A stretch of DNA of 64,000 nucleotides, from assembly GCF_032854445.1 (NCBI RefSeq), contig NC_088307.1, positions 19,714,001 to 19,778,000 of the forward strand, written 5' to 3'. A program made the translations under genes and the position numbers. Origin of the DNA: Liolophura sinensis (lineage: Eukaryota > Mollusca > Polyplacophora > Chitonida > Chitonidae). Below are positions 12,734-47,743 of this stretch, one piece after another. Under the pieces are notes generated by a model, which had not been told where the DNA came from, made no database searches, and was given only the letters and a program-made list of their open reading frames with translations. Numbering within the stretch: position 1 is the stretch's first letter; the number at the start of each line of letters is the position of its first letter.

Positions 12734-12850
12734 CGTGGCGATATAAGTCAACACGATGATCACACAGCCCCTAGCCCAGGGTTAAGCGGAATTAGACACA
12801 GTTCACAGTTATGATATAATTAATTACGTACAGCATAAAGAGAAAACCAT

Positions 12851-14297
12851 AGCAGCGACAACAGTGTGATAGGTGGCAGATGGTCACACGTAACTGGTGA
12901 AATACGGCCTCTTGTCGACGACGACAGTGTGATAGCTGGCAAGTGGTCACACGTAACCAGTGAAATATGGCCTCTTGTCGACGACGACAGTGTGATAGCT
13001 GGCAATTGGTCACACGTAACCAGTGAAATATGGCCTCTTGTCGACGACGACAGTGTGATAGCTGGCAATTGGTCACACGTAACCAGTGAAATATGGCCTC
13101 TTGTCGACGACGACAGTGTGATAGCTGGCAATTGGTCACACGTAACCAGTGAAATATGGCCTCTTGTCGACGACGACAGTGTGATAGCTGGCAATTGGTC
13201 ACACGTAACCAGTGAAATATGGCCTCTTGTCGACGACGACAGTGTGATAGCTGGCAAATGGTCACACGTAACCAGTGAAATATGGCCTCTTGTCGACGAC
13301 GACAGTGTGATAGCTGGCAATTGGTCACACGTAACCAGTGAAATATGGCCTCTTGTCGACGACGACAGTGTGATAGCTGGCAATTGGTCACAAGTAACCA
13401 GTGAAATATGGCCTCTTGTCGACGACGACAGTGTGATAGCTGGCAATTGGTCACACGTAACCAGTGGAATATGGCCTCTTGTCGACGACGACAGTGTGAT
13501 AGCTGGCAAGTGGTCACACGTAACCAGTGAAATATGGCCTCTTGTCGACGACGACAGTGTGATAGCTGGCAAGTGGTCACACGTAACCAGTGAAACATGG
13601 CCTCTTGTCGACGACGACAGTGTGATAGCTGGCAATTGGTCACACGTAACCAGTGAAATATGGCCTCTTGTCGACGACGACAGTGTGATAGCTGGCAATT
13701 GGTCACACGTAACCAGTGAAATATGGCCTCTTGTCGACGACGACAGTGTGATAGCTGGCAAATGGTCACACATAACCGGTGAAATATGGCCTCTTGTCGA
13801 CGACGACAGTGTGATAGCTGGCAATTGGTCACACGTAACCAGTGAAATATGGCCTCTTGTCGACGACGACAGTGTGATAGCTGGCAATTGGTCACACGTA
13901 ACCAGTGAAATATGGCCTCTTGTCGACGACGACAGTGTGATAGCTGGCAAATGGTCACACGTAACCAGTGAAATATGGCCTCTTGTCGACGACAGTGTGA
14001 TAGCTGGCAATTGGTCACAAGTAACCAGTGAAATATGGCCTCTTGTCGACGACGACAGTGTGATAGCTGGCAAGTGGTCACACGTAACCAGTGAAATATG
14101 GCCTCTTGTCGACGACGACAGTGTGATAGCTGGCAAGTGGTCACACGTAACCAGTGAAATATGGCCCCTTGTCGACGACGACAGTGTGATAGCTGGCAAA
14201 TGGTCACACGTAACCAGTGAAATATGGCCTCTTGTCGACGACGACAGTGTGATAGCTGGCAAGTGGTCACACGTAACCGGTGAAATACGGCTTCTTG
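12851..14297. repeat. 63-bp minisatellite, about 23 copies
   Basis: Unit spacing is 63 bp (GTGTGATAG at 12927, 12990 and so on), with very little divergence in the centre and more at both ends. One unit near 13985 lacks 3 bp. Because 63 is a multiple of three and the unit lacks stops in several frames, open frames of about 490 codons arise on both strands (a 21-residue repeat such as VDDDSVIAGNWSHVTSEIWP on +). Openness in two minus-strand frames and one plus-strand frame argues against coding. Confidence 0.95.
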
Positions 14298-14985
14298 TCA
14301 TTCTTACCATAAAAGAGATATCCCGTTAGAAATAACTCGCGGAAAGTGCACTTTTGATCAAAGACGCGAATTTTGTGTTCAATGGAGGCACTGTGTTTTT
14401 AATTAACAGTAAGAAGATCGACGTCGACCACAAAAATATTTTTACTGAAGCTTTCATGTATGTATTTCTACGGGCTGTCATAGTTTCGTTTTGCTTAACG
14501 TTTGTCTTCATATGTAAAACATAGCTTTTTAATTTGATCACTTTTGTTCTATTTCAGTTTCAAATCCATATTTCTGCCAGAGTCTGTCAGGCATCCTTTA
14601 TAGTACGGCAAACAAACGAAGTCTCTTTGGAGAACTGGTAGCACCTCTAGGAAGAGTTTGGATCGTGGTGGTACTCTATCTTTTTTTCTATGGAAACATG
14701 CTTTTGTGTGAGTAAAGATATCGACCGTCATACCAGGATTCTGCTGGTGGATTAAGCATCCCCGAGGCCTGGTCCCTTTGCATTGTTTTATATTATCGTA
14801 TGTTAAATGTTCTGACAACACAGCATTCTGAGTAATCCCAGACCAGTGACGTCTAATAAATTGCCATTAACATCACTGTATTTTTTAAAACTAATTCTGC
14901 TTAAGTCATGGTGCTAGGGGGGCGTGTAATTTGTTGCTATCTATGCATTTACGTGAACAGTTAGAATAAAACCGTAACTGATGTA
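14298..14985. other. intergenic, element remnant
   Basis: CTAATTCTGCTTAAG near 14889 is the reverse complement of the dispersed TTAAGCAGAATTAG word near 11803. No gene could be supported in the rest. Confidence 0.4.
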
Positions 14986-37200: not shown

Positions 37201-40200
37201 AGAGCATGGATTCACAGCCTGCAATCCTGAGCGAGGTCATTCAAGGTCGTCTGACCTGCTCTGTGTACAGTCTACCAGTGGGTCAAGTTCTCGGCTAGTT
37301 TAGTCTTCTTCTTCTTCTTGAGAAAATTTTAGTTACCCTAATTCTTCAACTTTTTCAACCGCCGCTGCAACCGATACATGTATATTTTGAAACATTCTGA
37401 GGAAACTATGAGGTACATGTAGAGAGAAATGATTTGAACAATTTTATGGATCTTGCATCTTTACTGGTCGACACAAGCAAAATCATTTTAGCCTTGTTTT
37501 CACGATAATTGTATGCATAAATTCCACTGAAAAAAGTGCTGAAGTAATTGAATAGGTTAAATATTTACTGTAAGTACATGATTGCCTACACTGATTCCTC
37601 ATCCTTATGATTATTTTATGTCTGTGTGGCACTATTGGCACAATTTGAACACAGGCTTTTTCATTGCAATTAACCCACAAAAATGCATATAAATGTAACT
37701 CTTAGTTAAATCTTCATTAAATGTATTTTTGCAGTTGGCAATTCGCAGAAGACATACCGTTAATTTCACTGTTACTAAATACAGTATGATGGAAATTAAT
37801 TTTAGTATGGTGGATTATTTTTTTAAAAAACCCAGCAACATCAAAGTGATGGTAATAATTTAATCATCAATGGTAATATAATTATGATTATAATACTATA
37901 ATGGGAATCGTCATTCTGTCTAATTAGCCGTGAATTAATCATTCTTAGTACCGCTAAGAGGTTTATCAGATCGGAATTCAAAGCTGCGTGTTTGAAGCTG
38001 GCAAAGTTGGCCTGGACAGCAAGCAGTAATGTGAAAAATATTTTCAAACCAAAGACCATTAAACATTGCCCACAGAAATAGTTCTGTTTAGTTTTCTTTT
38101 TTCTTAAAATTTTTGTCAATGTAGTAATATGCATTTGAATCTTTGGATGGAAAGCAGTGTCAAAATTTGCAGTTCTTTGTGATGAGCAAATAATACTGCA
38201 CCAATATGGTCACAGACTTGAAGCCAGCTCTTGTTCAACATGTTCAGGGCAGTCAGTGAAACCTGTCACTCCTGTGAGAAATGTGGAAGAGAAGCCGGAA
38301 ATTTGCTGATGTCGAGGTTCCTAGATAGGAAAAAAATACACCCTAAAAAATTGATACAGAATTGGATGGCTTAAATGCAATATGGTTTCTTTTTTGGCTC
38401 TTTCAATAATGACATTCCTTGTTCAGTAATTCGTGAAGAGTACATTAGATGGTAGATATAATGAAAATTTCAGCATTTGAAAGTTATTTATTTCTTTATT
38501 TACCCTATTTCCACAACCTCTTGGCATATGTAATAGCAACTTTCAGCTCAATTTATGTACATTTTTGATTTGATATTGGAGATGAAACTAGACTGGTTGG
38601 GTTGGCCAGTTTCAGGGTTTCTCAAAAAGTATAATTTTATTAGTCTAAACAGAATAATACCCAGAGAATATGCTTAATTAAACATCTTGCAAACATGCGA
38701 AAAATGTTGCTGAATTATAGTATTTATTTAGTGATTTATTTTTTTCCTTTTGTAGATTACATGTTTCTGAAGCCTCCCAGTAACGTGAGGGTGGCTTTAC
38801 TGGGAACAACGGATGTGGTCATAATCTGGTATGCGCCCCAAAATCAGAACATTTCCTTCGACGTTATGATCAGTGAGACTGCCCAGCAGACCCCCAGACT
38901 GGCCACCAATGAACCAGCCAATGGAACTGTGTTTTCCGTGACGGCATCAGTGACCAGTACAAATGGGACAGTGGAATACACCGCCCCGAATGACACTGTC
39001 AGGGAATCAGAAGATTCCAACACCACCCTGATACACTTGCCCACGGGCACCCCTGTGCAGGTGCCAGAAAACATTAACGATACCCAGAGTTCTCACTGGG
39101 TCAGGCCCCCTTGTGACAAAATTGAGCATTATTTGGTGATCTACCAAGAAAAGAACCAGTCAGGTTAGAATTTTATCTTCTCTCTAGTTGCCGTGTGAAC
39201 TATGAAAGCAGTATCACGAAATGCTAAACTATTTCCATTTAAATTGTTATTGAATTTATACACTTAAATGGAGTAAAGTATGTGTAAGTGCTGTGCTTCA
39301 CAAGTTTGGTTGAAAACAACACATTTACAGTATGGACTCACCCAGCCACAAGAAGACGTATACAGTACAGTGAATAAGCAAAGTAACTCTGAAGAAACTC
39401 ATTTTGTAATTCAGTTGTAATTATCCTGAGGATGACTGAATTAAAGTGAAAATGGTTGATATCGTCAAAATGAATTTCCTTGGTGTTACTTTATTTGGTA
39501 TGCTAACTGGATCAACTGAATTAAAGTAAATTAATTAATTAACTGAATTAAGTACATATATTCACCCCATCTTCCCCTTTTTGGTGTAATCACACCCATT
39601 CTTGTCTTGTATTTCACAGCACCCACCCCCACCCCATCTTCCCCTTTTTGGTGTTATCACACCCATTCTTGTCTTGTATTTCACAGCACCACCCCCACCC
39701 CATCTTCCCCTTTTTGGTGTTATCACACCCATTCTTGTCTTGTATTTCACAGCACCACCCCCACCCCATCTTCCCCTTTTTGGTGTTATCACACCCATTC
39801 TTGTCTTGCATTTCACAGCACCCACCCCGACCCATCTTCCCCTTTTTGGTGTAATCACACCCATTCTTGTCTTGTATTTCACAACACCCACCCCAACCCC
39901 ATCTTCCCCTTTTTGGTGTAATCACACCCATTCTTGTCTTGTATTTCACGGCACCCACTGCCACCCATCTTCCCCTTTTTGGTGTTATCACACTCATTCT
40001 TGTCTTGTATTTCACAGCACCACCCCCACCCCATGTTCCCCTTTTTGGTGTTATCACACCCATTCTTGTCTTGTATTTCACAGCACCCACCCGGACCCCA
40101 TCTTCCCCTTTTTTGTGTTATCACACCCATTCTTGTCATGTATTTCACAGCACCCACCCGGACCCCATCTTCCCCTTTTTGGTGTAATCATGCCCATTCT

Positions 40201-43200
40201 TGTCTTGTATTTCACAGGCACCCTTGTTGAGCTGACCACCCCCAGCAACCTGACAGAGATTAGACTCTCAAAGCTCACCCCTGGAACCGTGTACCAGCTC
40301 AGCGTCCAGGCGGCCTACAGCGGAGGGGTCAAGTTAAGGTCAAACTGGACAGAGTTTATCACCAATGGTTATGGTCGACACAGAAGTGAGTTTTAGGTCA
40401 TCAGCCCTGCCAGATTAACCCTGCCCTAATTTTTCAATCTTTTCACATATGAAAAGAGCAACTTTGAATGCAATTTATGCAAGTTTTTGATTCACAAGAA
40501 GTATAATTTGATCAGTCAGCACACACTAAGGCCTTCATAATATGCTTGAATAAACACCTGGCAAACATGCCAAAAGGTTGAAGAATTACAGTAATGCTAA
40601 ACAGTATAGTCTATAGGTGAGAAATACATTATTAAAATAATTTTACCAAAAATTTTTTATTTTTGGAGCATATTTAATGTCTCCAAAATTCCCCTCAGCC
40701 CCATTTGGAAATGACATCAGTGTTTAACTTTCCGATTTAGATTTTTTCTTTTGATTGGTGTTTTATGCCGTACTCACGAATATTTCACTTATTTCACAAC
40801 GGCGGCCAGCATTATGGTGGGTGGAAACCGGGTAGAGCCCGGGGGGAACCCACGACCATCCGCAGGGTGCTGGCAGACCTTCCCACGTACGGCCGGAGAG
40901 GAAGCCAGCATGAGCTGGGCTTGAACTTTCCGACTTAGAGGGATCAGCTTTAGTTGGCTGTTTAATTTCCTCACTGATGGCTTGGGTCTTTGGAAAACTA
41001 TAGGTTGAAGCCAGTTTTACATGGTAAAAACGAAAGCTGAGAATTTCTGTTATGTTTTTTTTTTTTTTGTACATTTATATGTTAGCACATACCTACCCTA
41101 AACTGCATGTCAAGAATTAAAACTTGCAATTAATCCATTTAGTCAGTATTTGAAAATACAAATTTACAAGTTATATTTGGGCCCTAAAAATGAACCTGTT
41201 GACCACCTCATAGTAAATGTTGTTTGCCAGTAGTGTGTCAAAATTTCAACTTTAATACAGTACCCAAAGCCAGACAGTGTAAATGAGGTCAGAAATGTTT
41301 CCACAAGTTTAAAGGTCATGTGGGATATCGTACTGATATATGTATATGTATACACTTCACCTGTGGGCAGCCTGGGACACAGTGAAGTATTTAGGAAGGT
41401 GAACAGATTATAAAAAGCAGAGGCAACACAAGACTAAATTTTATAGGCAGCGATAAGACATCCCACCTGAAGTTTAAAAAGCATTAATTTTTTTCTTTGT
41501 GATGTTGCATAGCTAAGATATTGGATTCCAAATAAAACAAAATCACTCACATTGAAAAATTGGAATGTGCCACCATGATATCAGTATTAATCAAACAGGC
41601 ACAAGTTATCTCTATAGCACAGGAATTTGGCTGTTTCTGTTTAGGTCACTCAAACACTTGCTTTTGTTGTGCAATGTATATTTTTGTCGCAAATTGCGAT
41701 GAAAGCGTGAAAAAGCGCAATTTTTCCCATTTTTACAGGTCACCTGACAGAGAACTGTTACAGCTGTACAGTGAAAATTGCTGTCTATTAAGGGCTATAC
41801 ATGCCTATATGGTGAAAATCTTTGACCTCTGACAAAAAACACAGGACATGTATACTTTTGAATAATGTCCAAAGGCAGATTTACCACATTTGGCACTTTT
41901 AAATACACATGTTATATAGGGTAATACAGTGTATGAATGGCTACGAAGAATAGGTATCATGTATATGTTCTCTTAATTATCTGGTTTGTACTGCAGTCGC
42001 AGTTAGCTCATCTTTAGCCCACACTGTAAAATTTCCATTCTAACCTGTATGGATTGTCTCCCTTTAATTTTGTTCATCCATCATTCACGCATATCCTTCT
42101 TTTCTGTGTTCAGCACTATGTAAATTATTATGAGTTTTTGGCCCCTTTTTACCAGCTCTGATCCGGTACCGTTTGCTTGTGAAGTCAGGAGTTCAAAACC
42201 CAGAGTGACCTCAGTCAGTTTATCCCACTAGAATTCGTGCTATACCCAGAAAGTGTCATCCAAATATTAGTACATAATTATGATTTTCCTGTGGGGTATG
42301 GAGAAAATTCTTTCAATGCTGGGCAACAGGAAAAGGAAAAACAAAAAAAAAGTAATAAGTGAAAAGCAAAGATTGTAAATAGGTAAATTTTTCTGTTATT
42401 ATTTCATGTTTAGCATATGCTTTCACACATTTGTGTTAATTCTTTCAGAGTGTAAGTGTAACCTCCATGGCCAGGATCCAGCAGATCAGGAGTGTGATCC
42501 GAACCGTTACAACTGGTGCAAATGTCGCCAGGGATATATGGGACTGTTTTGCGAGATGTGCAAAGTTGGGTTTTATCGCGTGTCTCCCACATTCCCGTGT
42601 CATCGATGTCCCTGTGCTAAAGTGCATTCGTCAGGAAGTTGTCAGTTTGGTAAGGAGTTAGCTTGCAGAGCTATGTCCCAGATTTTTTTGTTATAGATCC
42701 TGTTTAATTTTTTTTCTTTGTTCAAGAAATTATCCAAATTTTTCAATTGTTTAAAAAGATTACTCTGATTTTTTTCACAGTCAAATGTATCAAAAGAAAA
42801 AAAAAATTCAGAAGTTTATTGAAAAGGTAATCAAATTTTTTTCAACAAATTTTGAAACATAATCAAAACCTGGCTGAAAAACTAGATTCCATTGACAGTA
42901 TTATATCGACTTCTAGTCGAAAAAAAGTGTAAAATTTATATATGAACGGTTCGTGAAACGGAAAATAATTTCAGGCTGCAAAAATTAGAGAACTTAATGA
43001 TACTAAAATGTAAAATTTCATTTGGATCCTTCTGATTTTCGACACTTAATTTTTTTTTTTTTTTGGAAAAGTCATTTTGAAAAATACTTTGAGACGGTGT
43101 AAAATACAGGTTTAGGAGTATTGTATCAGATGCATTGAGCAGCTTGATTCATATTCATTACCCAGCTTGATTTATATTCAGTAGTGTGTAGAGGGAAAAG

Positions 43201-46200
43201 ATCCAAATCATGATTTAATCCCTCTACACGGTTACTTTTTACTATCTCCAGCCCGGTGAAGTGTGGCTACTGTTACACCAGTTAGCTTTTACACTTACAT
43301 TTGATCTTTCTATGTGTGTACATCTGTTTGGAGTTACCATCCAGGTGAAATGCTCTTAGTGCTATGCTGATTTACAGTTATATTTGATCTTTCTATGTGT
43401 GTATATCTGTTTGCAGTTACCATCCAGGTGAAATGTGTGTACATCTGTTTGGAGTTACCATCCAGGTGAAATGTGTGTACATCTGTTTGGAGTTACCATC
43501 CAGGTGAAATGTGTGTACATCTGTTTGCAGTTACCATTCAGGTGAAATGCTCTTAGTGATATGCTGGTTTATACACCAGTGACTTTTTCAATTTACAGAA
43601 ATCCCTCCTATTTGTTCCATGTGTTTACAGTGAGTGGCCAATTGAAATGTACCAACTGCCACACTGGTTACACCGGTAACCTCTGCCACAGGTGTGCTCA
43701 TGGTTACTATGCTGTAGACGGTCGCTGTCAGAGGTGTAATTGCCATGGCAACGAGGATGTGCGAAAGCTTCAAGTGTGTAGCCCAGCAACAGGTAAATCA
43801 ATTTAAGGCATTAGGCAGTCCGACTCCATTTGCATAATTTGCTAGTTCTGTTTGAACAAGTTGATCAGAAGATTTCACGGCAAACTGTTAGGAATCTTTG
43901 TACATGAAAAATGAATTCTGTGTATAGGTTGTGGGACAGATTCCGTATGCAAATTATACACAAATTCAGTTTATTATTTATATATACATTGTACTTGTAG
44001 GTGAAATGTTAGGATATCCGTCACTGGTAAAAGTGTTCTTTTGCATTTTTAGTGATCACTTGTGTTATTACATTTGAGTATTTCACTCCCAGATGCCATG
44101 ATGTCCAAAAAGGAACCTATCAAATTTGAAATGTTCCAATCTGAGCTCAGTTTGTCTACTCCTTAAATTCTCCACATTTTCGCATATGAAAGAGCAACTT
44201 TTTGTGCAACTTATCCAGGTGTTTAATTTAATTTGGGGGATAAAACAACATTGGGTGGAATGGCCAATTTCAGGGCTTCACAAAAAGTGTACCATTATCA
44301 GTTTACAAAGAATAATGCTTGAATAAACAGCTTGCTAATTGGTGGAAAGGTTGAAGAATTACAGTAATCCCATTTTAGTCAACTTAAACATCGCAGAACA
44401 ATATTAAATACCTCGCCCTCAAACAACACATCATATACAACACCCAAAAGTATTCATGTATGTACGAGTCAGTGCATTCATTCCTGTTTTTATTATTGCA
44501 TGCGTGGATTCATAATTCATGACATCATGGATTCATCCCTGTGTTTATTTCTAAACACATGAATGAATCGTATTACAAGCTTAATTATTTGTATAAATAA
44601 GTTATAATTACAAGCTTGCATTCTTTCATAACATTGTGTATTCATTCTTGACATGATGGATTCATTCTTGTATTCATTATTATATGCATGGTTCCACTCA
44701 TAACATCATGGATTCAAACTTGTATTCATTATTACATACATAGTTCCACTCATTAAATTATGGATTCATACTTGTATTCATTATTGCATGCATAGTTTCA
44801 CTCATCACATCATGGATTAATTCCCCTGTTTCCTAATATATTAACAGATTGCTTCATGACAGCGTGGATTCATTCCTGTGTTTACTATTACATGCTTGCA
44901 TTTATTCATGACATCATGGATTCATTCTTGTATTTATTATTACATACATGGTTCCTTTCATAACATCATGGATTCATTCCTGAGTTTATTTGCATCATAC
45001 AGGTCAGTGTATGGGCTGTCTCCACAACACTTCCGGGTTCTTCTGTGACATGTGTGCTGAGGGTTACAGAGGGGACCCCATCAAGGCCAAGAACTGCACC
45101 CTAATCTGTAAGTTGCTTACACACCTGGGGAAAATCTAATTTTTAAAAATTTTTACAAGTATATTTACTTTATTTATTTATTTATTTGATTGATGTTTTA
45201 CGTTGTACTCAAGAATATTTCACTTATACGACGGCGGCCAGCATTATGGTGGGTGGAAACCGGGCAGAGCCCGTGGGAAACCCACAAAAATCCGCAGGTT
45301 GCTGGTGGACCTTCCCACGTACGACCGGAGAGGAAGCCAGCATGAGCTGGACTAGAACTCACAGAGAGGTGAGAGGCTCCTGGGTCATTACGCTGCACTA
45401 GCGCGCTAACCAACTGAGCCACGGAGGCCCCATCAAGTATGTTTACTAGTACAAGAAAATATATCATTGCTAAAAATACATTTTTGTGTTCAGAAGCCAT
45501 TTGATATGCAAACAAAAATGTCACTTGTAAGTTCAGTCTGTAAATGTAACACACTTAGTGAAACTTGTGAAATACAGTATGTCTCAAAAAGAGTTTTAAT
45601 AGTAGCATAATTTGCTACTATTAAAACTCTTTTAATAATACGAAATATTACTCTTTGGGCCTGAGTTGAATATATTTTGTTTTCCTAGCAAACCTAAGAA
45701 CACGGAAGTTCTATAGAACTCTCAGAATAAAACAAAGTGAGTAACTTGTGGACGAAATTTTAGGTCAAATATGGTGTGTGTCTCCGTACCATGGCATGTG
45801 AGCCCCTGGTCTAGAAGGTTAATGGTGCAAATATAGTGTGGGTCTGCCCCAGACAAAGGAGGTTACTAGTGCAAATACAGTGTGGGTCTCCGTGCCACGG
45901 CATGTGAGCCCCTGGTCTAGAAGGTTAATGGTGCAAATATAGTGTGGGTCTGCCCCAGGCAAAGGAGGTTACTAGTGCAAATACAGTGTGTGTCTACGTG
46001 CCACGGCACGTGAGCCCCTGGTCTAGAAGGTTAATGGTGCAAATATAGTGTGGGTCTGCCCCAGACAAAGGAGGTTACTAGTGCAAATACAGTGTGGGTC
46101 TCCCTTCTACGGCACATGAGCCCCTGGCCTAGGAGGTTAATGGTGCAAATACAGTGTGGGTCTGCCTGCGATGACTGATGGCTGTGACGTACATATATGC

Positions 46201-47743
46201 AGGCCTTGATCTTTGTTTTTCAGGAGAGGTGTGATTATCATACCCCTTGTAAAAGACTAGGAGTGTGATTTGCACACTACGTGTAAATTAACACTATCAA
46301 GACTTTTGATAGTCAGGTGTGTTGTTATTTATTTGATTGGTTTTTTTTATGGCGTACTCAAGAATATTTCACTTATACAACAGCGGCTATCATTATGGTG
46401 GATGAAAACAAAGCTGAGTCCAGGGGAAACCCACAATCATCCACAGGTTGCTGGCAGACGTTCGGTATGAGCTAGACTTGAACTCACAGTGACAGGTGTG
46501 TTGTACTATGAAACCTAGGCTTTGTTTCAAGTGTAAGTTATGAGAGAGAGTGTGATTGCATGTCTCAAATTAATATACATGGATATGTATAGACAGCATT
46601 CAACACAAACCATGTCAGGGTACAGCATTCAACACAAACCATGTCAGAGTACAGCATTCAACACAACCATGTCAGAGTACAGCATTCAACACAAACCATG
46701 TCACAGTACGGCATTCAACATAACCATGTCACGGTACGGCATTCAACACAACCATGTCAGAGTACAGCATTCAACACAAACCATGTCAGGGTACAGCATT
46801 CAACACAACCATGTCAGGGTACAGCATTCAACACAAACCATGTCAGGGTACAGCATTCAACACAACCATGTCAGGGTACAGCATTCAACACAAACCATGT
46901 CAGGGTACAGCATTCAACACAACCATGTCAGGGTACAGCATTCAACATAAACCATGTCAGGGTACAGCATTCAACACAAACCATGTCTGAGTACAGCATT
47001 CAACACAACCATGTCAGAGTACAGCATTCAACACAAACCATGTCTGAGTACAGCATTCAACACAAACCATGTCTGAGTACAGCATTCAACACAAACCATG
47101 TCTGAGTACAGCATTCAACACAACCATGTCAGAGTACAGCATTCAACACAAACCATGTCTGAGTACAGCATTCAACACAAACCATGTCTGAGTACAGCAT
47201 TCAACACAAACCATGTCAGAGTACAGCATTCAACACAACCATGTCAGAGTACAGCATTCAACACAACCATGTCAGAGTACAGCATTCAACACAACCATGT
47301 CAGAGTACAGCATTCAACACAAACCATGTCAGAGTACAGCATTCAACACAAACCATGTCAGAGTACAGCATTCAACACAAACTAAATAAATAAGGGGTAT
47401 GTTTCTTGTTTCAGCTGAACTTCAGACCGCTCACGCCGGATCTCCAGGGGTCGGGATTATTGCTGCGGTCTGTGTGGTCATCATCCTCAGTTTGTCCGCT
47501 TTGGCGGGACTCGTCGTTTACCGAAAGTGGAACAATTTCCCCCACATGAAGCGGTTCTGGACGGTAGAATTGCGAGATAATCACGAAAGCGTCAGTTTCT
47601 GCGGAGTGCCAGCTGACGAGCGCAACGGGATAGCGTCTGACGCCAAGACCTTTGATGACATGGCATTTTATGAGAAGCAGTCGAGTCGAGATGCACGTAG
47701 AGGAAAGGACTCGAGTTATGCCCCTTTACGAGAAGACATCTGA
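18672..47743 (+). CDS. MEGF9-like: MEGF9-like type I membrane protein (FN3 + 3 laminin EGF + TM), complete, 7 exons
   Basis: Exons 18672-18789, 38756-39163, 40218-40385, 42449-42649, 43631-43792, 45003-45107 and 47415-47743 join without a break to 1491 nt, 496 residues plus stop. All introns are phase 1. Order: signal peptide (about 1-19); FN3 domain 46-225 with W64 and LTPGTVY (195-201), split over two exons; laminin-type EGF domains 233-282, 285-331 and 334-384, each with eight cysteines; membrane span about 400-422; tail 423-496 with FWTVEL (435-440), matching my recollection of the vertebrate MEGF9 tail. At least ten N-glycosylation sequons. It is probably a cell-surface adhesion or signalling receptor; the ligand is unknown. 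The FN3 domain, absent from the human MEGF9 I remember, makes orthology less certain than family membership. Confidence 0.88.
18790..20872 (+). other. MEGF9-like intron 1, first part
   Basis: It contains the (TA)n microsatellite at 19163-19207. No other repeat or exon was recognised. Short frames (such as 19586-19819) lack known motifs. Confidence 0.45.
19163..19207. repeat. (TA)n microsatellite
   Basis: Forty-five bases of uninterrupted TA dinucleotide repeat in MEGF9-like intron 1. Confidence 0.97.
20873..21021 (-). mobile_element. SINE family A, 3' half, minus strand
   Basis: Runs from the AAATA tail through TTACGCCGTACTCAAGAATA to GCAGGTTGCTGGCAGACG; the head is absent. It lies about 30 bp from the opposite-strand copy at 21052, forming an inverted pair. 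Confidence 0.85.
21052..21324 (+). mobile_element. SINE family A, full length
   Basis: Head GGGGCCTCCGTCGCTCAGTT, B-box-like GTGAGTTCAAGTCC, the shared body and an AAATAAATAAATAAAT tail. A possible diverged target duplication (ATGTTAAAAG / ATGTTCAAAG) flanks it. Confidence 0.9.
21325..23520 (+). other. MEGF9-like intron 1, part with degenerate GTGATGAC-type sequence
   Basis: Between about 22190 and 22740 words like GTGATGAC and AATGGCGATAAC recur irregularly and look like a decayed satellite. No exon supported elsewhere. Confidence 0.4.
23525..23655. repeat. short minisatellite, 21-23 bp units
   Basis: About six copies of GGTTGTTTGCCCTTGACACT-like units with small length changes. Confidence 0.85.
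23656..24579 (+). other. MEGF9-like intron 1, no distinct feature
   Basis: A loosely repeated TTGAAAAGCCTGGAAA word occurs near 23757-23815 and 24090. No gene supported. Confidence 0.35.
24580..24912 (+). mobile_element. SINE family B, plus strand
   Basis: The head near 24590 has a tRNA-like GGTAGATCCAGGGTCAATCC segment. The body includes CCTCGCTTGGCTTTCAGC and AAGGATTCCTTCGTCGCCAT, and the end is AAATTGTTAAGTACGACG plus TTAAACACCAAGC. It shares the body with the copies at 35083 and 63611. Confidence 0.85.
24913..25375 (+). other. MEGF9-like intron 1, with a decayed SINE-like piece
   Basis: GCCGGCGAAAGGTGG and TAAGTGAAAAATTCTACG near 25150-25230 suggest a very old SINE end. Otherwise nothing recognised. 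Confidence 0.3.
25376..25642 (+). mobile_element. SINE family A, full length, 13-bp target duplication
   Basis: Reference-quality copy. Head GGGGCCTCCGTGGCGCAGTC (A box TGGCGCAGTCGG), B-box region GTGAGTTCAAGCC, the shared body and an AAATAAATAAATAA tail. ACATGTATGTACA is present on both sides (25363-25375 and 25643-25655). Confidence 0.95.
25656..26735 (+). other. MEGF9-like intron 1, no feature seen
   Basis: Rich in TACATGTACATG-type words. No exon or element supported. Confidence 0.35.
26736..27003 (-). mobile_element. SINE family A, full length, minus strand
   Basis: Tail at left, tRNA head at right (GCTAACCAACTGAGCCACAG). Several small differences from the 25376 copy mark it as older. 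Confidence 0.9.
27004..27547 (+). other. MEGF9-like intron 1, no feature seen
   Basis: T-rich stretch near 27175-27260 and TACATGTACATG words only. Confidence 0.35.
27548..27773 (+). mobile_element. SINE family A, decayed
   Basis: The head GGCCTCCATGGCTCAGTTGG and the body are recognisable, with deletions in the middle and near the 3' end. A-rich AAATAAATAAAT tail. Confidence 0.85.
27774..28383 (+). other. MEGF9-like intron 1, no feature seen
   Basis: No exon or element supported, except a SINE-like end ATTCTTGAGTACGACATTAA near 28349. Confidence 0.35.
28384..28466 (-). mobile_element. SINE family A, short 3' fragment
   Basis: GATTTGATAGGTGTTTTACG through CCACCATTATGGTGGCGGG matches the reverse complement of the SINE 3' end. 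Confidence 0.75.
28685..28998 (+). mobile_element. SINE family B relative, diverged
   Basis: It ends ATGTGACTGAAAAATTGCTA then AGTACGATGTAAAAACCC, like family B, but the head (CATTGGCCATCTGGTTCTC) and middle differ. It is either a subfamily or a different tRNA-SINE sharing the 3' tail. Confidence 0.65.
28999..30076 (+). other. MEGF9-like intron 1, no feature seen
   Basis: A C-run followed by an A-run lies near 29401-29421. No exon supported. Confidence 0.35.
30077..30181 (-). mobile_element. MITE-like family C fragment, minus strand
   Basis: GAAGCCCTGAAATTGGCCAA and TCCAACCACTGGAGTTTTGT are reverse complements of the family C centre found near 44230-44285 and 38580-38625. Confidence 0.65.
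30182..30450 (+). mobile_element. SINE family A, full length
   Basis: Head GGAGGCCCCTGTGGCTCAGT, complete body and AAATAAATAAATAAATT tail. Confidence 0.9.
30451..31103 (+). other. MEGF9-like intron 1, no feature seen
   Basis: A 13-base C run lies near 30686. No exon supported. Confidence 0.35.
31104..31334 (+). mobile_element. SINE family A, partial
   Basis: Starts at GTAGGCTAGGGCAGCGTAAT within the head. There is a small insertion near 31147 and a deletion of the GGCCGTACGTGG region. Tail intact. Confidence 0.85.
31335..31978 (+). other. MEGF9-like intron 1, no feature seen
   Basis: T-run near 31706-31717. Nothing else recognised. Confidence 0.35.
31979..32232. mobile_element. foldback element, arms of about 100 bp
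   Basis: The left arm (GAGCTGGGATACTACATG, GGTTACATGACTCAGTTAAT, ACCGTATTCCACCTAA) is matched in inverted order by the right arm (TTAGGTGGAATACGGTATTA, ACTGAGTCATGTAACC, AGTAGCCCAGCTTCCC). The arms are separated by about 60 bp. No coding capacity; probably a MITE or foldback transposon. Confidence 0.8.
32460..32630 (+). mobile_element. SINE family A, 5'-truncated
   Basis: Starts near GTATGTGGGAAGGTCTGCC and has the full 3' body and a long AAATAAATAAATAAATAAAT tail. Confidence 0.88.
32631..33382 (+). other. MEGF9-like intron 1, AT-rich, no feature seen
   Basis: Poly-T and poly-A runs near 32779-32803 and 33180-33215. No exon supported. Confidence 0.35.
33383..33640 (+). mobile_element. SINE family A, nearly full length
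   Basis: Decayed head (GCACTAGCGCAGCATAATG), B-box-like GTGAGTTCAAGTCC, body and AAATAAATAAATA tail. Confidence 0.88.
33641..34671 (+). other. MEGF9-like intron 1, no feature seen
   Basis: AT-rich; no exon or element supported. Confidence 0.35.
34672..34900. mobile_element. MITE-like element with inverted ends
   Basis: Left end ACTGTAACTCATCAACCTTT; right end AAAAAGTTGAAGAATTAGGC, whose complement is GCCTAATTCTTCAACTTTTT. The right half matches, inverted, the segment at 37328-37412. The ends resemble those of family C. Confidence 0.55.
35083..35439 (-). mobile_element. SINE family B, full length, 13-bp target duplication
   Basis: Minus-strand copy: the 3' end at left (GTTTAACGTCGTACTCAACA) and the tRNA-like head at right (complement GGTAGAGCGTCCGCTTCGG). 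TATAAATGAAGAG flanks it at 35070-35082 and 35440-35452. It is nearly identical to the copy at 63611. Confidence 0.93.
35453..35977 (+). other. MEGF9-like intron 1, no feature seen
   Basis: No exon or element supported. Confidence 0.35.
35978..36228 (-). mobile_element. SINE family A, minus strand
   Basis: Tail at left, body (GCGACCAGCATTATGGTGGG), head at right (GCTAACCACCTGAGCCTCAA). A short deletion removes the ACGCCGTACTCAAG segment. Confidence 0.88.
36589..36762 (-). mobile_element. SINE family A, 3' part, minus strand
   Basis: Long (TTTA)n tail then GATTGGTGTTTTACACCATA and body to CAGACCTTCCCACATGC. Confidence 0.85.
36927..37024 (+). mobile_element. SINE family A, 3' fragment, plus strand
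   Basis: CTGGTTTCCTCCTACCAGAA through TGTAAACACCAATGAAATAA. It lies opposite to the fragment at 36589. Confidence 0.8.
37025..38499 (+). other. MEGF9-like intron 1, with a partial MITE-like segment
   Basis: 37318-37412 (TTACCCTAATTCTTCAACTT, TTTTGAAACATTCTGAGG) matches the right half of the element at 34672 in inverse orientation. No exon seen in the remainder. Confidence 0.45.
38500..38720 (+). mobile_element. MITE-like family C copy
   Basis: TTTACCCTATTTCCACAACC, then GCAACTTTCAGCTCAATTTA and GGTTGGGTTGGCCAGTTTC, ending at TTGCTGAATTATAGT. Same order as 40416 and 44158. It lies about 35 bp before exon 2. Confidence 0.65.
38756..39163 (+). CDS. MEGF9-like: MEGF9-like exon 2: first part of the FN3 domain
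   Basis: Acceptor TTTTCCTTTTGTAG ends at 38755; donor GTTAGA at 39164. It encodes residues 40-176: PPSNVRVALLGTTDVVIIWY, then a loop of about 90 residues with six sequons (N71, N95, N109, N118, N128, N147), then CDKIEHYLVIYQEK. W64 is the conserved FN3 core tryptophan. The loop is far longer than in a typical 90-residue FN3. Phase 1 at both ends. Confidence 0.88.
39562..40217. repeat. 66/67-bp minisatellite that carries the exon 3 splice acceptor
   Basis: Ten tandem copies of a pyrimidine-rich unit (CATCTTCCCCTTTTTGGTG ... TTGTCTTGTATTTCACAG). The last copy's CACAG is the acceptor of exon 3. AG is kept at 39619, 39686, 39752, 39818, 40017, 40083 and 40150 and mutated near 39884 and 39950. 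The unit spacing is 66 or 67 bp. Confidence 0.93.
40218..40385 (+). CDS. MEGF9-like: MEGF9-like exon 3: second part of the FN3 domain
   Basis: It encodes residues 177-231 plus split codons: TLVELTTPSNLTEIRLSKL, TPGTVYQLSVQAAYSGG and SNWTEFITN. LTPGTVYQLSVQA is the classic FN3 L-x-P-x-T-x-Y strand F motif. Donor GTGAGT at 40386 is consensus; phase 1 at both ends. Three upstream decoy acceptors would extend it in frame. Confidence 0.9.
40416..40597 (+). mobile_element. MITE-like family C copy
   Basis: Left end TTAACCCTGCCCTAATTTTT, right end GGTTGAAGAATTACAGTAAT (imperfect inverted ends), with AGAGCAACTTTGAATGCAAT between. It starts 30 bp after the exon 3 donor. Confidence 0.65.
40751..40924 (-). 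mobile_element. SINE family A, head missing, minus strand
   Basis: TTTGATTGGTGTTTTATGCC to CAGCATGAGCTGGGCTTGAA. The tRNA head is truncated. Confidence 0.85.
40925..42448 (+). other. MEGF9-like intron 3 remainder, no feature seen
   Basis: No tandem array, exon or element supported in this stretch. Its acceptor is AATTCTTTCAG. Confidence 0.45.
42449..42649 (+). CDS. MEGF9-like: MEGF9-like exon 4: laminin EGF 1 and start of 2
   Basis: It encodes residues 233-298: CKCNLHGQDPADQECDPN ... WCKCRQGYMGLFCEMCKVG ... CHRCPCAKVHSSGSCQF. The cysteines at 233, 235, 247, 255, 257, 266, 269 and 282 give the eight-cysteine laminin-type pattern. Donor GTAAGG at 42650. Phase 1 at both ends. Confidence 0.92.
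42650..43312 (+). other. MEGF9-like intron 4, AT-rich part
   Basis: Many T- and A-runs (for example 43049-43064). No exon or element recognised. Confidence 0.45.
43313..43552. repeat. 38-bp minisatellite upstream of exon 5
   Basis: GTGTGTACATCTGTTTGGAG followed by TTACCATCCAGGTGAAAT recurs at 38-bp spacing (43435-43550), with two longer-spaced copies before it. It ends about 78 bp before the exon 5 acceptor. Confidence 0.88.
43631..43792 (+). CDS. MEGF9-like: MEGF9-like exon 5: rest of laminin EGF 2, start of 3
   Basis: It encodes residues 300-352: SGQLKCTNCHTGYTGNLC, HRCAHGYYAVDGRCQRCNC, HGNEDVRKLQVCSPATG. Acceptor TTTACAG, donor GTAAAT, phase 1. EGF 2 has C-x2-C (305, 308) where many laminin EGF domains have C-x-C. 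Confidence 0.92.
44158..44372 (+). mobile_element. MITE-like family C copy
   Basis: AGAGCAACTTTTTGTGCAAC, then GGGTGGAATGGCCAATTTC, ending AGGTTGAAGAATTACAGTAA. The most complete family C copy in the window, in intron 5. Confidence 0.7.
44500..44998. repeat. 52-bp AT-rich tandem array ending at the exon 6 acceptor
   Basis: About nine diverged copies of ACATCATGGATTCATTCTTG plus TATTTATTATTACATGCAT, spaced 52-53 bp (44704, 44808, 44911, 44963). The last unit runs into GCATCATACAG, the acceptor of exon 6. Confidence 0.88.
45003..45107 (+). CDS. MEGF9-like: MEGF9-like exon 6: rest of laminin EGF 3
   Basis: It encodes residues 354-387: QCMGCLHNTSGFFCDMC, AEGYRGDPIKAKNCTLI. Cysteines 355, 358, 367, 370 and 384 complete the third eight-cysteine domain. 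Sequon at N361. Donor GTAAGT at 45108 is perfect. Phase 1. Confidence 0.92.
45170..45433 (-). mobile_element. SINE family A, full length, 14-bp target duplication
   Basis: Tail at left, head at right (GCTAACCAACTGAGCCACGG). A small deletion removes part of the B-box region. CAAGTATATTTACT (45156-45169) and CAAGTATGTTTACT (45434-45447) flank it. Confidence 0.92.
45588..45632. repeat. perfect hairpin, 20-bp arms and 5-base loop
   Basis: AAAGAGTTTTAATAGTAGCA at 45588-45607, loop TAATT, then the exact reverse complement at 45613-45632. In intron 6. Confidence 0.9.
45780..46170. repeat. 106-bp tandem array, about 4 copies
   Basis: GTGAGCCCCTGG-type words at 45798, 45904, 46010 and 46116 give a period of exactly 106 bp. 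Each unit has two related halves (GGTTAATGGTGCAAATA and GGTTACTAGTGCAAATA), so the array grew from an older half-unit of about 50 bp. Confidence 0.9.
46326..46492 (-). mobile_element. SINE family A, partial, minus strand
   Basis: TTATTTGATTGGTTTTTTTT, then GCGTACTCAAGAATATTTC and CAGGTTGCTGGCAGACG; the GGCCGTACG region is deleted and the head is missing. Confidence 0.8.
46597..47384. repeat. 28/29-bp minisatellite, about 27 copies, upstream of exon 7
   Basis: Units read CATGTCAGRGTACAGCATTC then AACACAAAC (29 bp) or AACACAAC (28 bp). Variants (GTCAGGG, GTCAGAG, GTCTGAG) are arranged in blocks. Ends 30 bp before the exon 7 acceptor. Each unit contains TACAG but no pyrimidine tract. Confidence 0.94.
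47415..47743 (+). CDS. MEGF9-like: MEGF9-like exon 7: transmembrane segment and tail
   Basis: Acceptor TTCTTGTTTCAG ends at 47414. It encodes residues 389-496. The membrane span is GVGIIAAVCVVIILSLSALA and on to about 422, followed by basic YRKW (stop-transfer). The tail has FWTVEL (435-440) and ends LREDI, a possible class III PDZ ligand (inference). TGA at 47741. Confidence 0.92.

Follow-up and report, generated by a model that had tools for sequence, protein, structure and literature searches.

An acceptor-bearing minisatellite in front of a fibronectin exon of a chiton is a likely molluscan case of the 'mirage' arrays of amphioxus

Minisatellites that duplicate an intron–exon boundary have been named 'mirages' in amphioxus, where they are described in Adh3 and in the globin genes BflGb6 and BflGb9 (PMC3087553). 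The BflGb6 mirages repeat the 3' end of an intron together with the 5' part of the exon, one haplotype having 6 units and another 3, and by RT-PCR they did not seem to disturb regular splicing; the splice signal is repeated in many, though not all, mirage units, and mirages were suggested to be possibly general in cephalochordates (PMC3087553). In human genes within segmental duplications, internal tandem repeats have on average four units of 30 bp, about half of them in coding sequence, and for 66% of the repeat-caused intron modifications there is also an alternative transcript in which the repeat is kept (PMC2812944). A potato gene is described as having gained an intron through tandem genomic duplication (PMC4974935).

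The array analysed here lies in a 64-kb window, the whole stretch of DNA under analysis, of the chiton Liolophura sinensis. A lancelet origin of the genome was considered and rejected, as the genome has eight tandem matches to the mollusc haemocyanin beta-sandwich; the search for the GFP family gave nothing, but it is uninformative because the control genomes gave nothing either. Like the amphioxus mirages, it consists of tandem repeats over an intron–exon boundary with the true boundary at the array end, and many units retain the splice signal: AG is present at seven of the nine upstream unit ends, the number given by the first-pass annotation, while 39884 reads AA and 39951 reads GG. The unit size of 66/67 bp falls inside the 10–72 bp range of the Adh3 mirages. 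Set against the mirages described in PMC3087553, the host is a mollusc instead of a cephalochordate, no more than 5 nt of each unit are exonic whereas the BflGb6 units of 150–160 bp extend over the 5' part of exon 2, three decoy acceptors are in phase and stop-free, and splicing is judged from sequence and not by RT-PCR. The repeats of human genes resemble the chiton array as minisatellite expansions, sometimes at an exon–intron boundary, with alternative use possible, but they concern recent primate paralogs with transcript support (PMC2812944). The potato case likewise involves tandem duplication touching splice signals, although there a single duplication made the intron (PMC4974935). Mirages appear to be the best match, and the chiton array would add a mollusc case to those already known.

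TRF reports the minisatellite with a period of 66, 9.9 copies and 93% matches (Table 1). Its units end at 39619, 39686, 39752, 39818, 39884, 39951, 40017, 40083, 40150 and 40217, spaced by 66 or 67 nt as the first-pass annotation had it; the accompanying statement that every unit ends in one string needs narrowing, as exactly TTGTATTTCACAG ends six of the ten. Over the last 50 nt of the intron side, upstream units differ from the real acceptor by 2–5 mismatches. The 609-Mb genome holds ten matches to the unit among the best-scoring candidates, all inside this array. By a simple script scan, the only donor-like motif in the units is GGTGTAA, a weak match in four of ten. A study of the human gene IFI6 reportedly concerns a minisatellite with short units, about 12 nt, that carry splice donors; splice sites are thus carried by the units of both arrays, but the chiton units repeat an acceptor and do not supply donors. 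An assembly artefact, by which the array was collapsed or expanded, has a negligible likelihood: the sequence comes from a single, purged assembly at 14x HiFi coverage, but the units are individually distinguishable and the mean HiFi read of 8,347 bp far exceeds the 661-bp array. The window is rich in minisatellites (48 TRF rows, some overlapping), so an array overlapping an acceptor is not improbable by itself; the repeat array at 39563–40223 is not due to chance.

Table 1. Features of the host gene and of the acceptor array (positions in the window; acceptors and insert as predicted from the sequence)
Feature	Position	Strand	Remarks
Upstream coding exon	38756..39163	+	Apparent sub-threshold first FN3 domain and first half of second
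Donor GT of upstream exon	39164	+	One coding base G at 39163 carried over; phase-1 intron
Intron, 1054 nt	39164..40217	+	3' 655 nt are minisatellite
66/67-bp minisatellite	39563..40223	+	9.9 copies; each a polypyrimidine tract plus acceptor or acceptor remnant
Decoy AG	39618..39619	+	Out of phase, 598 nt; runs into stops
Decoy AG	39685..39686	+	In phase, 531 nt; open; 177-aa insert
Decoy AG	39751..39752	+	In phase, 465 nt; open; 155-aa insert
Decoy AG	39817..39818	+	In phase, 399 nt; open; 133-aa insert; one T>C in tract
Lost acceptor AA	39883..39884	+	Would be in phase, 333 nt
Lost acceptor GG	39950..39951	+	Out of phase, 266 nt
Decoy AG	40016..40017	+	Out of phase, 200 nt; runs into stops
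Decoy AG	40082..40083	+	Out of phase, 134 nt; runs into stops
Decoy AG	40149..40150	+	Out of phase, 67 nt; runs into stops
Longest hypothetical in-phase insert	39687..40217	+	177 aa, 1 charged residue, GRAVY 0.53
Canonical acceptor AG/GCACCC	40216..40217	+	Sole unit end of ten followed by G
FN3 exon, 168 nt	40218..40385	+	Second half of second FN3 domain; donor GTGAGT at 40386

Joining 39163 to 40218 gives an FN3 domain (PF00041) of 46.9 bits (E 3.3e-12, cut-off 25), whereas its separate halves reach 19.2 and 20.6 bits, and none of the six fibronectin domain alignments listed has a gap at the join. Because this join restores the domain, the real acceptor is, on FN3 homology, 40217, which bears out the earlier assignment of the last unit as the real acceptor of the FN3 exon.

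The array is likely to be a boundary-copy minisatellite of the amphioxus mirage kind, in which the last acceptor is used and the upstream copies are near-neutral. A segment of about 60 nt that included the phase-1 intron's polypyrimidine tract, its 3' splice site and probably the first few exon bases would have been duplicated in tandem and then amplified to ten copies. The spliceosome would pick the last acceptor via exon definition, presumably because a short exon body, closed by a donor 168 nt further on, adjoins this acceptor alone. The upstream copies may be near-neutral passengers that drift and are homogenised by unequal exchange. Occasional use of a decoy would mostly end in premature stops, which are reached from four of the seven AG decoys, all out of phase (a point absent from the first-pass annotation), or in a disrupted FN3 domain.

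That the array is built of copies of the intron's 3' end, with the true acceptor in its last unit, is supported. By TRF, the right end reaches 6 nt into the FN3 exon, crossing the boundary 40217/40218. The string CACCC is common to the left edge (CACCCCATC, 39563) and the right edge (exon bases 40219–40223), and it follows six of the nine upstream unit ends, which favours an expansion that began beside the exon and copied the acceptor, as had been proposed. The shared exon sequence is CACCC only, and none of the nine upstream copies has the G that directly follows the acceptor at 40217, so duplication may have reached no further than the splice site. The same small overlap and missing G would fit a minisatellite that arose within the intron on its own and whose last copy later became the acceptor of the exon. 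We consider that order of events unlikely, given that the start of the exon agrees with the FN3 alignments, which have no gap there, that CACCC stands at both edges, and that similar arrays elsewhere in the genome contain clearer exon sequence.

Two such sister arrays, L058 and L048, were found among 20 acceptor-word arrays inspected; the L058 units carry 9 nt of exon and the L048 units some 20 nt in diverged form. In L058, three decoys equal the real site in 15 bases of intron and 9 of exon, and in the sole frame where the exon is open they read only 5 codons before a stop. Decoys that match the real site yet hit a stop imply that the site itself cannot be what tells real from decoy, and the choice of acceptor in L058 probably comes from elsewhere, from exon definition. 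This exon has no Pfam match within itself; a DOP1_C match 3.3 kb downstream, whose 27.0 bits (2.9e-6) fall just short of the cut-off of 27.3, makes DOP1 the probable host of the array. Rap_GAP was considered as the gene identity and dropped, as it has no match near L058. In L048, there are 24 AG/GATGAG acceptors including the real one, thus 23 decoys before the apparent exon, and the decoys run into stops in a frame that is presumed for an exon without gene identity.

The first-pass annotation had noted that exons starting at 39687, 39753 and 39819 would be in phase (531, 465 and 399 nt longer) and stop-free, and all three do read through. It called the resulting insert Pro/His-rich, a fair label for 16–19% Pro and 11–12% His; the three possible inserts are also nearly uncharged and mildly hydrophobic (GRAVY 0.36–0.53). 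A transmembrane-like insert was rejected: one 19-residue window at 1.6 occurs in the longest insert and none in the other two. From these properties it had been proposed that the decoys make FN3 variants, with inserts of 133, 155 or 177 residues whose length would track array copy number. Besides the three open in-phase decoys with intron sides almost identical to that of the real acceptor, AG/C is seemingly accepted at the apparent exon 47415 of the same gene and occurs in 3 of 16 script-guessed acceptors of FN3 exons in the genome, and repeats of human genes can stay in alternative transcripts (PMC2812944). However, all in-phase decoys are open in 48% of the shuffled unit orders having at least three in-phase decoys, and we therefore rejected the open frame as coding evidence. 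The AG of the units shows no better preservation than its surroundings in the unit: 2 of its 20 letters have changed, compared with 11 of 490 letters elsewhere in the core (p = 0.07, toward loss), and of the two in-array acceptors already gone one was in phase. Loss of AG in the two TAA-variant units (ends 39884 and 39951) was considered as selection against strong decoys and set aside, the units being too few. The insert would sit within an FN3 domain that aligns without a gap, the amphioxus mirages were reported to leave splicing normal (PMC3087553), and the sister-array decoys hit stops in the presumed exon frame. The in-frame insert is thus weak evidence of an isoform, production of such FN3 variants is very unlikely, and we do not uphold the proposal.

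It is also doubtful that low-level use of decoys gives mostly stop-containing transcripts, with array length tuning the amount of full-length mRNA. The four out-of-phase decoys and the stops behind the sister-array decoys would fit such a role, but the sequence carries no sign of selection for or against decoys. Most likely, the spare acceptor copies are bypassed and not used for new proteins.

By TRF coordinates, no comparable boundary array lies beside the FN3 exons of 30 FN3 loci (some overlapping) out of 148 matches; the only FN3 locus read in sequence, L016, has a 15-bp repeat of 2.5 copies at the donor. A rule demanding an acceptor, an open frame and a donor at array ends was applied to 35 loci and the window on both strands, and 4 of 169 array ends passed: the window array, L058, L043 and L064 on the minus strand, of which the last two are judged weak. 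L048 was missed because its last tract has 7/12 pyrimidines and the rule needs 8. Zero control-word arrays passed (13 of 15 counted on contig C1; scan alone). Three-copy matches numbered 1246 for TTTCAGG versus 532 for the reversed word, 3191 versus 2385 for TTTACAG, and 747 versus 198 for TTTCACAG, the last count raised by one or more very long arrays; matches within one array are not independent. Single-word counts in an exon-rich 152 kb were 36 versus 26 for TTTCAGG and 37 versus 44 for TTTACAG. Counted by eye in the first 61.4 Mb of C1, arrays stood at 23 versus 6 among the listed matches (binomial 0.014 relative to the base rate, for words picked by the analyst). That minisatellites are enriched in acceptor words across the genome is only suggested.

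In this mollusc, one array is a clear case, another lies in a probable DOP1 gene and a third is a candidate, so boundary-copy minisatellites do not look confined to cephalochordates. The effect on the FN3 gene itself is probably small. That some transcripts use an in-phase decoy, making the array an evolving, copy-number-dependent set of alternative acceptors that add blocks of about 22 residues inside the FN3 domain, seems quite improbable; if true, a chiton with similar arrays in other genes would offer a series of natural experiments on the choice among identical splice sites. Rows of identical acceptors ahead of a single true exon put exon definition to a natural test, and new introns and exons could plausibly arise by way of boundary-copy arrays.

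The minisatellite at 39563-40223, with 66/67-bp units in 9.9 copies at 93% matches (TRF, window), is built from a splice acceptor, and its last unit is the real acceptor of the FN3 exon, as the first-pass annotation had proposed. AG is kept at 7 of the 9 upstream unit ends, in agreement with the seven units named there; 39884 reads AA and 39951 reads GG. The terminal string that the annotation gave for each unit, TTGTATTTCACAG, is exact in six of the ten units and inexact in the remaining four. Compared with the real acceptor, each upstream unit shows 2-5 mismatches in the last 50 intron bases, and G follows the last unit end only, C following the other nine. A search of the chiton genome, scoring the best candidates, matched the unit nowhere outside the array (10 matches). 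An assembly artefact is unlikely because the 14x HiFi reads, reported in the assembly paper as excerpted (PMC11068029), average 8,347 bp against a 661-bp array with distinguishable units. Haemocyanin domains of mollusc type, eight in tandem, were also seen in this genome.

Positions of the acceptor array, its flanking exons and two sister arrays (window coordinates unless a locus or contig is named)
Feature	Position	Strand	Remarks
Upstream exon	38756-39163	+	donor at end, one coding base left over
FN3 exon	40218-40385	+	frame continued from 38756-39163; donor GTGAGT
Unit ends, cut at acceptor	39619, 39686, 39752, 39818, 39884, 39951, 40017, 40083, 40150, 40217	+	
L058 array	L058 730-1021 = C1:48840429-48840720		54 bp x 5.4; runs 9 nt into an open exon
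L048 array	L048 reverse strand 1-1079 = C1:5714722-5715800	minus	37 bp x 29

Unjoined, the two exonic sides score 19.2 and 20.6 bits against FN3, both sub-threshold, and the join 39163|40218 scores 46.9 bits (E 3.3e-12, profile positions 6-83). The six fibronectin domain alignments printed have no gap at the join, and in one alignment of marginal score (1.5 bits) a gap occurs a few residues ahead of it. From the joined score and the ungapped join, FN3 homology predicts 40217 as the canonical acceptor. The join presumably lies in the loop between FN3 strands C and C'. Further downstream, two ORFs match laminin-EGF, and another, with no Pfam match, contains a strongly hydrophobic stretch (2.84 over 19 residues) that looks like a membrane span. 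Two other arrays lie in the same gene. In the intron ahead of the second laminin-EGF exon, a 38-bp array of 6.1 copies (43312-43549) has units in which TTTG[C/G]AG and CAG|GTGAA flank an 11-nt stretch, resembling a repeated pseudo-microexon; a 29-bp array of 27.6 copies (46593-47382) stops 32 nt 5' of the apparent acceptor of the membrane-span exon (47414) without including it.

Three decoys, at 39686, 39752 and 39818, are in phase and stop-free as claimed (offsets of 531, 465 and 399 nt), and their use would add 177, 155 and 133 residues. One more unit, at an offset of 333 nt, is in phase but has lost its AG, and the other four AG decoys (598, 200, 134 and 67 nt) reach stops. When the eight internal units were permuted with the last fixed (20,000 orders), at least three open decoys arose in 11% of orders, and among orders with at least three in-phase decoys all were open in 48%. 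The AG letters are changed in 2/20 cells versus 11/490 elsewhere in the unit core (p = 0.07, toward faster loss), so there is no sign of the decoys being retained. The predicted inserts contain 16-19% Pro, 11-12% His and one charged residue, with a mean hydropathy of 0.36-0.53; placed inside an FN3 domain, they would probably break up the fold rather than create a variant of it. On these three grounds (frequency of open frames in shuffles, AG not favoured, insert composition), the suggestion that the decoys yield functional FN3 isoforms is unsupported.

The earlier proposal that expansion began beside the exon and copied the acceptor is favoured by the sequence CACCC, present at both array edges (the right-edge copy being exon bases 40219-40223) and directly after 6/9 upstream unit ends, although the overlap is thin, comprising five bases and lacking in the copies the exon's first G. 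This pattern fits tandem duplication of a segment that would have run from the intron tract to just within the exon. The last unit has private changes (ATG for ACA) and several inner units are closer to one another, which is what homogenising exchange in the centre of the array, sparing its edge, would produce.

Amphioxus mirages, minisatellites that duplicate an intron-exon boundary, offer the closest comparison: two structural features, a tandem repeat crossing the boundary and repetition of the splice signal, are shared by the chiton array, and a possible copy of exon sequence amounts to the CACCC overlap. According to the excerpted account (PMC3087553), BflGb6 carries 6 units in one haplotype and 3 in another, AG/GT is preserved in many but not all units, Adh3 data and RT-PCR suggest that regular splicing goes undisturbed, and the authors propose mirages as an origin of new introns. 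By analogy, the chiton array resembles a mirage and probably functions likewise. Against such bypass of the repeat, 66% of repeat-driven intron modifications in a human gene set also have a repeat-retaining transcript (PMC2812944, in excerpt). No mollusc boundary minisatellite was found in the literature searched, whose reach mostly excluded subscription papers; an intronic minisatellite is described from abalone, the available part of that source mentioning no boundary. The chiton array is placed in a kind already known from amphioxus, in a phylum where these searches yielded no earlier report.

Other repeats were also observed. At 12839-14329, a 63-bp x 23 array, its unit a multiple of 3, stays open for about 500 codons in three frames, one on the plus strand and two on the minus strand. 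A dispersed element at 40750-40950 and elsewhere in the window, which we take to be a probable SINE of MetaSINE type, has a conserved core and ORFs reading ...SIMVGGNR.... At another locus, L016 (1797-1833), a 15-bp x 2.5 repeat starts from the donor of an FN3 exon and may be either a very small boundary repeat on the donor side or a chance occurrence.

Spaced three-copy acceptor words exceed reversed words genome-wide in all three tests (1246:532, 3191:2385 and 747:198; hits non-independent). A genome-wide search for three spaced TTTCAGG copies gave 23 arrays counted by eye in C1:1-61.4 Mb, of which 22 were fetched and 20, being TRF arrays with the word at least three times, were inspected. 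Two of the 20, L058 and L048, adjoin apparent exons. The L058 exon has no Pfam match, and L079, a predicted same-strand exon lying 3.3 kb downstream, gives a DOP1_C match of 27.0 bits (2.9e-6; cut-off 27.3), making a DOP1 gene the probable host. All five L058 decoys read DIVFI-stop in the sole frame that leaves the exon open, and three equal the true site across 15 intron and 9 exon bases. In L048, 23 AG|GATGAG copies precede the acceptor that serves an apparent acidic exon of 48 nt, all eight in-phase decoys, read in the presumed frame, meet TAA at codon 8, and the array does not continue in the next 9 kb. TRF coordinates of 30 FN3-exon loci include no comparable array; with two sisters found, the structure recurs, though it seems not to be common. 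Because three L058 decoys cannot be told locally from the real site, choice among these identical sites must, provided that the DOP1 gene undergoes the correct splicing expected of a conserved gene, be set by the neighbouring exon and its donor, and the same logic would favour 40217 in the FN3 gene. As natural test cases for how an acceptor is chosen, these chiton arrays have some value.
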